Source: Saccharomonospora viridis DSM 43017
GTDB taxonomy: Bacteria > Actinomycetota > Actinomycetes > Mycobacteriales > Pseudonocardiaceae
Assembly (NCBI RefSeq): GCF_000023865.1
Contig: NC_013159.1
Location: 1,576,001-1,640,000 of the forward strand
Reading direction: 5' to 3'
Length of the DNA: 64,000 nucleotides
In this document: one piece after another, positions 56,018 to 60,264 of the stretch
How the letters are laid out: each line of letters starts with the position of its first letter
Position numbering within the stretch: the stretch's first letter is position 1
The notes under the pieces: generated by a model
The model's database searches: none
Told to the model about the DNA's origin: nothing
The model's input: the letters and a program-made list of their open reading frames with translations, nothing else
Translations under genes and position numbers: made by a program

Positions 56018-56248
56018 ATGGAACTGTTCCTGCAAATTTTGTTGATCGTCTCCAGCGTGCTGCTGATCATCGCGGTGCTGCTGCACCGTGGTCGAGGCGG
56101 CGGGCTGTCGTCCCTGTTCGGTGGCGGTATGCAGTCGAGCCTTTCCGGGTCGAGCGTGGCCGAGAAGAACCTCGACCGCATCACGCTCGGGATCGGTGCT
56201 GTGTGGGTGATCGCCATCGTTGGGCTCGGTCTGCTGGTGAAACTCTGA
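56018..56248 (+). CDS. secG: Preprotein translocase subunit SecG
   Basis: A 76-residue membrane protein with two helices (LFLQILLIVSSVLLIIAVLLH and LGIGAVWVIAIVGLGLLVKL) joined by the conserved RGRGGGLSSLFGGGMQSSLSGSSVAEKNLDRIT loop; it forms part of SecYEG. ATG 56018 is preferred to 56012 because AGAGG then stands 6 nt upstream. TACTCT at 55975-55980 might be a promoter between tpiA and secG. Confidence 0.94.
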   Translation: MELFLQILLIVSSVLLIIAVLLHRGRGGGLSSLFGGGMQSSLSGSSVAEKNLDRITLGIGAVWVIAIVGLGLLVKL

Positions 56249-56301
56249 TCGGCGTTGGCGTGCGAGGAGCGTACGTCAACTTTCTGGTGGGGTGACGATT
56301 C

Positions 56302-56649
56302 ATGGTTGGCGGTAACGCGATTCGAGGCACGCGGATCGGGGCGGGCCCCTCGAACGAGACGGAGCGTGGGGAGGCTGCTCCGCGACGTCGGGTCTCCTAT
56401 TGGTGCGCCAACGGACACGAGTCACGTCCGTCGTTCGCGATGGACGCGGAGACTCCGGAACAGTGGGACTGCCCGCGCTGCGGTTTGCCCGCGGGGCGGG
56501 ACCGGGAGAATCCTCCCGCAGCCCCTCGCACGGAGCCGTACAAGTCGCATCTGGCGTACGTGAAGGAACGTCGGAGCGACGCCGACGGTGAGGCCATCCT
56601 CGCCGAGGCGCTGGAACGGCTGCGTCGTCGCCGCGAAGGCGAAGGCTGA
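56302..56649 (+). CDS. rbpA: RNA polymerase-binding protein RbpA
   Basis: A 115-residue actinobacterial transcription activator that binds the principal sigma factor and RNA polymerase. The N-terminal tail is followed by the zinc-ribbon-like core SYWCANGHESRPSFA...WDCPRCGLPAG with its Cys pairs, the basic linker with PRTEPYKSHLAYVKERRS, and the sigma-interaction helix EAILAEALERLRRRREG. RbpA stabilises open complexes and contributes to rifampicin tolerance in relatives. It follows secG by 53 bp, as in many actinobacteria. Confidence 0.95.
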   Translation: MVGGNAIRGTRIGAGPSNETERGEAAPRRRVSYWCANGHESRPSFAMDAETPEQWDCPRCGLPAGRDRENPPAAPRTEPYKSHLAYVKERRSDADGEAILAEALERLRRRREGEG

Positions 56650-56702
56650 TCCGGTTTCTCCTCCGGCGACAGCTGAAGCTGGGACAACAACAAAAGGTAC
56701 AT

Positions 56703-56780
56703 ACCACGAAGGCCACTTTTCCTGAGCCAGCCGCAGGGAAAGGTGGCCTTCACTTGCACAGGAAAAGTGGCCTTCGTGGT
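56703..56780. repeat. 22-bp perfect inverted repeat with a third related copy
   Basis: The left arm (56703-56724, starting ACCACGAAGGCCACTTTT) and right arm (56759-56780) are exact complements over 22 bp. A third, diverged copy of the right arm (CAGGGAAAGGTGGCCTTCAC, from 56734) lies between them. The unit sits between convergent rbpA and the histidine kinase and reaches the kinase stop codon. It probably ends both transcripts, but the extra copy suggests a repeated element rather than a simple terminator. Confidence 0.85.
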
Positions 56781-58018
56781 TAGGTGAGCGGATAGCGGGC
56801 CCGGATTCGGAACCCACCGTCGTCGGTGCATTCGGCGTCGAACGTGCCTCCGAGGAGTTTGGCGCGTTCGGCGAGCCCGGCGAGGCCGTAGCCGCCACCG
56901 GGAGGCAGCGCGGGATTACGGCGGGCGTTGGGGCGGTCGTTGCGCACTTCCACGGAAAGCGTGTCGTTGGACGCGGAGATGTGCACGAACGCGGTGGCCC
57001 CCGGCGCGTGCTTACGGACGTTGGTCAACGCCTCCTGCACCGTGCGGTAGGCCGCCGCCGAGACCTGGCGTGGCAGTGAGCTCGGCAGGTTCTCCACCGA
57101 CACTCTCACCGGAACACCGGCATGACGTATGAGCTCGTCGAGATTGTCCAGATCCGCTTGGACGGTCATGTCGGAGCCCGACCGCAACACACCCACAAGC
57201 CCCCGCAGCTCCTCCAAGGTGCGTCTGCTCAGCGTGCGGATCGTGTCGGCGGTCTTTTTGGCCTCCGGGTCGGTGTCGGCCGCGCACAACACCCCCGCCT
57301 GCATGGCGATGAGGGTGATGTCGTGGGACACCACGTCATGCATTTCCCTCGCCAGTCGGGCCCGCTCCTCGGCCCGCACCGCTTGTGTATGAAGTTGTCG
57401 TTCCCGGTCCCGGCTTTCCGCAAGTTCCGCCAGACGCGCGGCCAGTTCCGCCCTCGCCTGGATGAGCAAACCGATCGCCACCGGCATGCCCGCCACGATC
57501 ACGCCGTAGATGGCGTCGAGGATGTGCATGCGCCAGGTGAGATCGAAGAAATCGGCCAGCGGCCAGAGTATGAACCGGCACAGCCACACCAGACCGGCCC
57601 CCACCCACATGTGCCAGTGGAACGGCTTACGGCGTGCGAGGTATCCCAACGCGAACATGGCGGCCAACTGGGCCCAGCCCGCGAAGAAACCGGGAACGGC
57701 GAGCACGACCGCGGTGAACGGGAAGCGGCGGCGCAACAGCAGTGCCACACAACTGGCGGCGGACAGGTACACGGAATACGGCGGTGCTTGCTCGGGAACC
57801 ACCAGCCACACGTCCAGCACCGCGATGACGACGAAAGCCAGATCCGTCGCGATACCGGTGAGGGCAGGGCGTCTCGCGAACACCTTCGTCGACGGATCTG
57901 TCGGGCTCACCGTCGACGGGTCTGCCGGGCTCGCACTGCGCTGCTGCGGCAGCTCCGCTGTCTCCGCGCCAGAACCGCTGACCGGGACCCCGGTTAGGGA
58001 TATTCCCTGTGTGGTCAT
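56780..58018 (-). CDS. Sensor histidine kinase, NarL-type (HisKA_3)
   Basis: A 412-residue membrane kinase. A 50-residue disordered, Pro/Ser-rich cytoplasmic start precedes four to five helices (about residues 55-190). The dimerisation box has ERARLAREMHDVVSHDITLIAMQAG with the phospho-His near residue 227. The HATPase domain has EALTNVRKHAPGATAFVHI (N box) and GGGYGLAGLAERAKLLGG (G box). ATG 58018 was chosen; a start at 58051 adds 11 residues. No response regulator gene lies on either side, so the partner is elsewhere. The signal is unknown. Confidence 0.9.
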   Translation of the reverse strand: MTTQGISLTGVPVSGSGAETAELPQQRSASPADPSTVSPTDPSTKVFARRPALTGIATDLAFVVIAVLDVWLVVPEQAPPYSVYLSAASCVALLLRRRFPFTAVVLAVPGFFAGWAQLAAMFALGYLARRKPFHWHMWVGAGLVWLCRFILWPLADFFDLTWRMHILDAIYGVIVAGMPVAIGLLIQARAELAARLAELAESRDRERQLHTQAVRAEERARLAREMHDVVSHDITLIAMQAGVLCAADTDPEAKKTADTIRTLSRRTLEELRGLVGVLRSGSDMTVQADLDNLDELIRHAGVPVRVSVENLPSSLPRQVSAAAYRTVQEALTNVRKHAPGATAFVHISASNDTLSVEVRNDRPNARRNPALPPGGGYGLAGLAERAKLLGGTFDAECTDDGGFRIRARYPLT

Positions 58019-59955: not shown

Positions 59956-59999
59956 CGAAGTCTCCTGTGTCGGTCCGCGCCCGGCGAGCCGCCCCTGGA

Positions 60000-60264
60000 C
60001 TCGGACGCCTGCGGTGTTGTGCGGGACACCCTCCCTACTCGGACTTGCCGGGCAGGCCGGAGCAGGGGCCCACCCCGGTCGGCGTCCACAACGGGCAGGC
60101 CAGTCTCCGTCACGGACGCCTGCGGTGTTGTGCGGGACGCCCGCACCCGGTCGGCGTCCGCGATGGGCAGACCATCCTCCGTCACGGACGCCTGCGGTGT
60201 TGTGCGGGACGCCCGCACCCGGTCGGCGTCCGCGATGGGCAGACCATCCTCCGTCACGGACGCC
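60000..60264. repeat. 72-bp tandem repeat at the 3' end of zwf
   Basis: Two identical 72-bp units (60111-60182 and 60183-60254) begin CACGGACGCCTGCGGTG. A third, diverged unit (60000-60110) has a 39-bp in-frame-length insertion. A truncated fourth start (60255-60264) lies inside zwf and encodes its last codons. Each unit contains GGACGCC and its complement GGCGTCC, plus a GCGGG-ACG-CCCGC hairpin. The array fills most of the zwf-opcA gap. Confidence 0.92.

Follow-up and report, generated by a model that had tools for sequence, protein, structure and literature searches.

The intergenic element described here was found in Saccharomonospora viridis DSM 43017, within an analyzed stretch of 64,000 nucleotides (referred to below as the window), where it occupies 78 bp between two genes that converge upon it. 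It contains three matching arms in the copy order +, -, -, the first of which starts 53 bp after the stop codon of rbpA, and the third of which abuts the stop codon of a histidine kinase gene. The features of the locus are as follows:

56302-56649, plus strand: rbpA, RNA polymerase-binding protein, the gene upstream of the element (open reading frame; Pfam RbpA, E=1e-42)
56681-56702, minus strand: T-rich stretch ATGTACCTTTTGTTGTTGTCCC past the stem, read from the sequence, a possible loose U-tract for the kinase transcript
56703-56780, no strand assigned: whole 78-bp three-arm element, with an outer stem of copies 1 and 3 (folding and genus alignment)
56703-56724, plus strand: arm (copy) 1 with the outer flank ACCAC, carrying the word core GGCCACTTTTCC at 56711-56722 and common to both alternative stems
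56708-56751, no strand assigned: inner hairpin of copies 1 and 2, the 44-bp form of the genus (repeat search and genus alignment)
56737-56751, minus strand: copy 2, internal, invariant in all eight aligned genomes
56759-56780, minus strand: copy 3, the outer arm, whose final base overlaps the kinase stop codon
56780-58051, minus strand: convergent histidine kinase gene with its stop codon at 56780-56782 (open reading frame; HisKA_3, E=1.4e-17; HATPase_c, E=1.5e-07)

The outer arms represent a perfect 22-bp inverted pair, composed of ACCACGAAGGCCACTTTTCCTG and its exact reverse complement, which can be extended to 28 nt at 93% complementarity. The third copy, GGAAAGGTGGCCTTC, is identical to the same stretch of arm 3 at 14 out of 15 positions and 93% complementary to arm 1; due to the order +, -, -, arm 1 is complementary to both arms 2 and 3. 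Two exact 22-bp arms and a third copy had already been described in the earlier note, and their presence was confirmed far beyond chance expectation: the 12-mer core (at most one mismatch) has three matches in the window, all of them residing in the element, as compared to a mean of 0.23 in shuffled sequences, none of 100 shuffles reaching three. Moreover, the pair showed the highest complementarity among the six inverted-repeat pairs listed in the window (arms of at least 18 nt, distance limit 60). Two further structures were observed in the window, namely an ordinary terminator-like hairpin with a short T-run at 56254-56280 (0.6 such sites in shuffles), directly following a small open reading frame that ends at 56248 and which we take to be SecG-like, and direct repeats between two minus-strand genes at 59960-60250, with the repeated peptide TDACGVVRDARTRSASAMGRPSSV in a frame crossing the gap.

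The 96 nt around the element were calculated to fold at -52.4 kcal/mol on the plus strand and -51.5 kcal/mol on the minus strand (z -7.5 and -7.4, respectively), and none of 200 shuffles folded equally well. On the plus side, the stem is not followed by a U-tract; on the minus side, a loose T-rich stretch is present. The terminator scan of the window reported nothing at the element, which may be excluded by the loop limit of 3-8 applied in the scan, and the Rfam search yielded no match at gathering score across the window.

To follow the element through the genus, the rbpA-kinase gaps of 12 genomes were compared, and three copies were found in 11 of them. Eight genomes (S. viridis, G001, G002, G003, G004, S. 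piscinae, G009, and G010) share the GGCCAC word and a length of 78 bp without any indels. Another three (G006, G007, and G011) feature GGACTCC in copies 1 and 2 and GGGGTCC, differing by one change, in copy 3, the latter being changed further and decaying in G011. A plain two-arm hairpin was encountered in G005 only. Within the alignment of the eight 78-bp elements (six distinct rows), columns 26-52, including the whole inner copy, showed zero variation. The inner copy, which the earlier note regarded as diverged, is therefore the conserved part of the element and not a decayed copy. Arm 1 of S. viridis carries a T in place of the C present in the other seven genomes and now matches arm 3 perfectly. 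The gap of G010 (L029) is 884 bp long and contains a called reading frame of 194 aa between rbpA and the element, which is intact beside the kinase stop codon.

RbpA was found in all 150 genomes of the family. Inspection by eye of 23 rbpA gaps originating from outside the genus revealed no three-arm element; these gaps mostly contain two-arm hairpins with unrelated stems, three of them being 7 bp long and one representing a gene overlap, and in six of the 23 the kinase end was not recognized by the script, so that about 250 bases were viewed there. The rbpA gap of G020 features a two-arm GAAGGCCACC hairpin, and that of G171 (L066) is filled by different short repeats around GGGGCATC.

Pairing of arm 1 with either arm 2 or arm 3 would result in two mutually exclusive hairpins, a short inner one (1:2) and a long outer one (1:3), and such an alternative use of one arm by two partners is plausible. 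On the rbpA transcript, arms 1 and 2 would emerge first, so that the inner hairpin could close at once. On the kinase transcript, arms 3 and 2 would precede arm 1, and the outer stem could close with the loosely T-rich stretch after it. In the eight aligned genomes, standard pairs accounted for 97.2% of the outer-stem cells when read as minus-strand RNA and for 88.2% when read as plus-strand RNA, with departures that mainly read as G-U in the former and as A-C in the latter case, and one double change, from A-U to G-C, was detected. The corresponding values for the inner stem were 95.6% (plus) and 98.2% (minus). This pairing by strand fits, but does not prove, a preferential use of the outer stem by the kinase transcript and of the inner stem by the rbpA transcript. 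The G-U columns favored the minus strand by 8 to 2 among 27 columns (7 to 2 when restricted to the 24 columns of the stem), corresponding, for these few columns, to 0.055 and 0.09 in a hand-made one-sided binomial test. G006 and G007 show the opposite, as the departure of their outer stem forms G-U on the plus strand. The single departure in the inner 15-bp arm of S. viridis is G-U on the plus strand, and that of G010 is G-U on the minus strand, the latter counting against a strand-specific stem model. The covariation score observed for the outer stem was reached by 28 (plus) and 21 (minus) out of 500 shuffles, this being a weak control, and covariation of the inner stem did not exceed that of shuffles in the eight-genome alignment.

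Copies were then counted in the complete S. viridis genome (one contig, 4,308,349 bases). Allowing up to three mismatches, the 17-mer gave eight matches, three of them in the element and five with three mismatches each, none of the five coinciding with a GAAGGCCAC..GTGGCCTTC palindrome. This paired pattern itself identified five palindromes (reversed control: 0), and the four besides the element have common 9-bp ends and differing middles and begin 21 to 34 bp from the stop codon facing them. For the 13-mer word, 12 matches were obtained on both strands (control: 2). The three-arm pattern was restricted to the rbpA-kinase gap; the three-arm form is thus alone in the S. viridis genome, which is copy-poor. 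A proof of dispersal by means of the exact core within this genome was ruled out, the core being confined to the rbpA-kinase locus. A phage origin was likewise rejected, as the lone match to Mycobacterium phage Myrna was weak (37 bases, E=0.1) and covered query positions 18-54, before arm 1.

The situation in related genomes is different from that in S. viridis. The paired pattern was present in 15 out of 61 genomes comprising S. viridis and relatives (reversed control: at most 1), with 62 places in Prauserella shujinwangii (G031), 56 in S. piscinae (G008), and 28 in G020, as compared to 5 in S. viridis (G000). A wider pair pattern for two-arm palindromes recovered 281 places in Prauserella endophytica (G117), 94 in G026, 56 in S. 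piscinae, 28 in G006, 12 in G011, and 8 in G007 (control: 0, except 1 in G007). High numbers were also obtained for the 13-mer word on both strands, namely 283 in Prauserella flavalba (G138; control: 1), 261 in P. endophytica (1), 178 in G026 (4), and 83 in G006 (1). At least 120 stretches were located in named genome contigs of P. flavalba, P. endophytica, P. shujinwangii, S. piscinae, and one actinomycete MAG. The three-arm pattern occurred at 47 places in 9 out of 150 genomes of the family (reversed pattern: 3), including one place inside a called gene (G030) and two overlapping places in S. piscinae; it misses the elements of G003, G004, G009, and G010, arm 3 of which reads GCGGCC, and the set of 150 comprises none of G002, G005, G006, G007, and G011.

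The element is, accordingly, a member of a dispersed intergenic palindrome family residing in Saccharomonospora and Prauserella as well as in further genera of the same bacterial family. Dispersal of a palindromic intergenic element, as suspected in the earlier note, was thus established for the relatives, where the family occupies gene 3' ends with a preference for convergent gaps, and did not hold for S. viridis itself. That note would have abandoned the idea had the genome contained no other copies; S. viridis comes close to this state, and the idea was rescued by the relatives only. Comparison with relatives can be required to recognize a seemingly unique element of one genome as part of a family.

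Family members differ in their word and agree in their shape. The word GGGCACWTTCCCTGC was counted 98 times in G007, 99 times in G011, and 88 times in G006, and was absent from the remaining nine genomes of the genus (no control match in any of the 12). The 98 matches in G007 were joined into 57 clusters (maximum distance 60 bp). At least two matches are present in 33 of these, at spacings of 22, 30, or 52 bp exclusively: a 52-bp pair in 16 clusters, a full triple in 8 (four per order), a 22-bp pair in 7, and a 30-bp pair in 2. In 24 of the 33 multi-match clusters, the outer spacing is therefore the 52 bp of the three-arm form (22+30), and in 16 of these 24 the middle copy is not an exact word match, as is the case in S. 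viridis; the middle copy was read directly in the printed loci only. Two orthologous gaps adjoining elements of S. piscinae feature three arms with the GGGCAC word in G007 and G011, three arms with GGACTCC in G006 (one of them diverged at the second gap), and two arms with GGCCTCC in G005. In the other seven genus genomes, S. viridis included, most of the gene between these two gaps is missing and other sequence is found there, and no family words were seen by eye at the two gaps.

These results bear on an alternative, an ordinary strong terminator whose additional half-repeat arose through local template switching and was retained by chance within the genus. The single place of the three-arm pattern in S. 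viridis and the 23 gaps of other genera, in which no three-arm element was seen, would agree with such an origin. However, the length of exactly 78 bp is kept in eight genomes, the outer arms of G007 clusters repeat the 52-bp spacing, and other species possess the three-arm form at unrelated loci as well, a recurrence that already disfavors this explanation, which we regard as improbable.

Presence of an element also varies between genomes. One orthologous stretch of P. flavalba and P. endophytica has two gaps that contain an element in one species and not in the other; in another stretch, an element is common to both. In an orthologous element of the two species, the loop center reads TTCAA in P. 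flavalba and TTGAA in P. endophytica (L164:1100-1150 and L181:3565-3615), as would result from an inversion of the loop within its flanking arms. Furthermore, a palindrome with another word, AAGGCACTTTGG, and the same GCGTTGAACGC loop lies at L139:5080-5140 and is missing from the orthologous P. endophytica gap (L149). Judging from this palindrome, loop and arms may be exchangeable as modules.

Terminators are usually viewed as evolving singly, whereas many 3'-end hairpins of one genome share a word here, and orthologous gaps of related species contain different words in the same three-arm frame. As a tentative extension, it is conceivable that the family constitutes a genome-wide set of bistable two-way terminators, operating with no known transposase, in which the word changes jointly across the arms of a locus and across many loci of one genome against a constant shape, place, and spacing (22 and 30 bp), amounting to concerted evolution by an unrecognized copying process.

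To evaluate the placement of the family relative to genes, 173 distinct clusters of at least two copies were assigned to gaps between genes called with a simple script from codon-position GC, identical-sequence repeats being counted once in this and the following gap and wobble counts. In total, 99 clusters were located in convergent, 66 in codirectional, and 3 in divergent gaps, 4 were inside called genes, and 1 was undetermined. Accordingly, the family is extragenic, only 4 of the 173 clusters lying within a called gene. Since the loci had been fetched for holding elements, many as element carriers and some as three-arm carriers, the sample is not random, and neighboring gaps were used as control (gaps of 60-600 bp, loci L127-L246). 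Among 102 gaps with an element, 58 were convergent, 42 codirectional, and 2 divergent, as compared to 34, 103, and 83, respectively, among 220 gaps without an element (Fisher p about 9e-14 for convergent enrichment and 4e-14 for divergent avoidance). The suggestion that copies should be found in convergent gaps was thereby borne out. Elements are also positioned close to gene ends: of 63 distinct loci, 33 were convergent, 25 codirectional, 1 divergent, and 1 inside a gene, and 3 had no left gene; with the last five excluded, the element started at most 40 bp from the facing stop codon at 48 of the 58 remaining loci (median 23). Oriented by the upstream transcript, the extra arm in codirectional gaps followed ++- in seven and +-- in two cases, which are too few for a conclusion.

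Enrichment in convergent gaps could also point to an element acting at the DNA level, in which near-perfect palindromes, located where the supercoils of converging genes meet, serve as cruciform or binding sites (with a nucleoid protein or gyrase as conceivable ligands) and RNA pairing is a by-product. The observation that every Prauserella copy is itself near-palindromic is in line with this explanation. The RNA-strand wobble test carried out for 73 codirectional family elements was not significant, with 35 G-U versus 27 A-C (p=0.37), or 21 versus 13 when counted per element (p=0.23); hence, the wobble bias of the rbpA locus does not generalize, and a role at the DNA level is possible. On the other hand, the outer stem at the rbpA locus pairs better as minus-strand than as plus-strand RNA, and many copies reside in codirectional gaps as well, mostly near stop codons. 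Overall, we consider a purely DNA-level element rather unlikely.

A REP-type transposase, proposed in the earlier note as something to look for, was considered as the mover of the palindromes and found no support in the genomes and loci searched. No match to PF01797 (Y1_Tnp) was obtained in S. viridis or in the seven copy-rich genomes G020, G026, G031, G088, G117, G138, and G139. The domain was present in 4 of the 12 genus genomes and in 4 of 16 chosen genomes, these being the same four (G003, G004, G006, and G008), and their Y1_Tnp loci (L104-L108, about 1.5 kb per side) contained no word of the GGCCAC, GGACTCC, or GGCCTCC type. Likewise, the tetramers GTAG and CGTC were not enriched within 12 bases outside the ends of the 173 clusters (8/346 and 32/346 ends, either strand, versus 18/346 and 57/346 in control stretches 60 bases away from the element ends). 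Short extragenic palindromes, a high copy number in some relatives, and clustered units are features expected of a true REP/BIME system mobilized by a REP-associated tyrosine transposase (RAYT), but with neither the transposase in copy-rich genomes, nor the words of the three types at the Y1_Tnp loci, nor a tag enrichment at the element ends having been found, such a system appears highly improbable. Copies may arise by gene conversion between dispersed copies, by template switching within hairpins, or through an unrecognized mobile system.

Taken together, the element is probably best explained as a three-arm member of a dispersed palindrome family that acts as the common 3'-end hairpin, either a terminator or an mRNA-end hairpin, of two converging genes and offers them alternative stems. 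Its anatomy, its conservation in the genus, its dispersal in relatives, its placement at 3' ends, and the species-specific words with three arms kept were observed; termination would be its predicted function, with a different stem presumably serving each transcript. Two questions become testable, namely in what way short palindromes are spread and homogenized in the absence of a recognized transposase, and whether a single arm serves two opposed terminators by alternative pairing.

No description of a three-arm palindrome family was found in the open-access literature, as judged by titles and abstract openings. Inverted pairs of DNA uptake sequences were reportedly described as terminators in Neisseria and Haemophilus by Kingsford in 2007. 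They are similar to the present family in that a genome-specific word is reused as inverted pairs at gene ends, but the word is rare in S. viridis (12 matches of the 13-mer, as counted above, against 2 in the control).

With REP/BIME elements and their RAYTs, known from E. coli, Pseudomonas, and Stenotrophomonas, the family has in common short extragenic palindromes in many copies (here in relatives), their occurrence singly or in small clusters, and a proposed role in termination. It is unlike them in its longer arms, in the three-arm order (+,-,-) or (+,+,-), in that no RAYT association was found, and in a word that is not constant among related species at a given site. Moreover, S. viridis does not possess many palindrome copies (the element and four with common 9-bp ends); these occur in relatives such as P. 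endophytica. A GTAG (or CGTC) tag marks one end of REP elements (PMC3733652, PMC2817692), and no enrichment of either tag at the ends was found here. The element therefore resembles REP/BIME terminator palindromes in its working, but neither a RAYT association nor an end-tag enrichment was found for it. CGTC-tagged repeats are reported as dispersed palindromes without a dedicated transposase in the accessible part of PMC3733652, where they feature the CGTC tag and stems of 8-9 bp, in contrast to the untagged stems of 15-24 bp in this study. The portions of these sources available to us contain no occurrence of 'Actino' (PMC3733652) or, beside the definition of RAYTs, of 'Actinobacteria' (PMC2817692), and the accessible part of a REP survey (PMC12306157) lists three Actinomycetota in a table, with no occurrence of Saccharomonospora, Amycolatopsis, or Streptomyces.

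A structural parallel is provided by U-less or clustered-hairpin intrinsic terminators. According to the accessible part of PMC8355165, nearly 90% of terminator structures in M. tuberculosis have no or a mixed trail, and opposite-strand (X-shaped) arrangements are mentioned; the element is comparable in featuring a strong hairpin just past the stop codon and, apparently, no proper U-tract. One arm common to two alternative stems is not described in that part of the source. Furthermore, the terminators treated there represent structural classes, whereas the element analyzed in this study belongs to a repeated sequence family.
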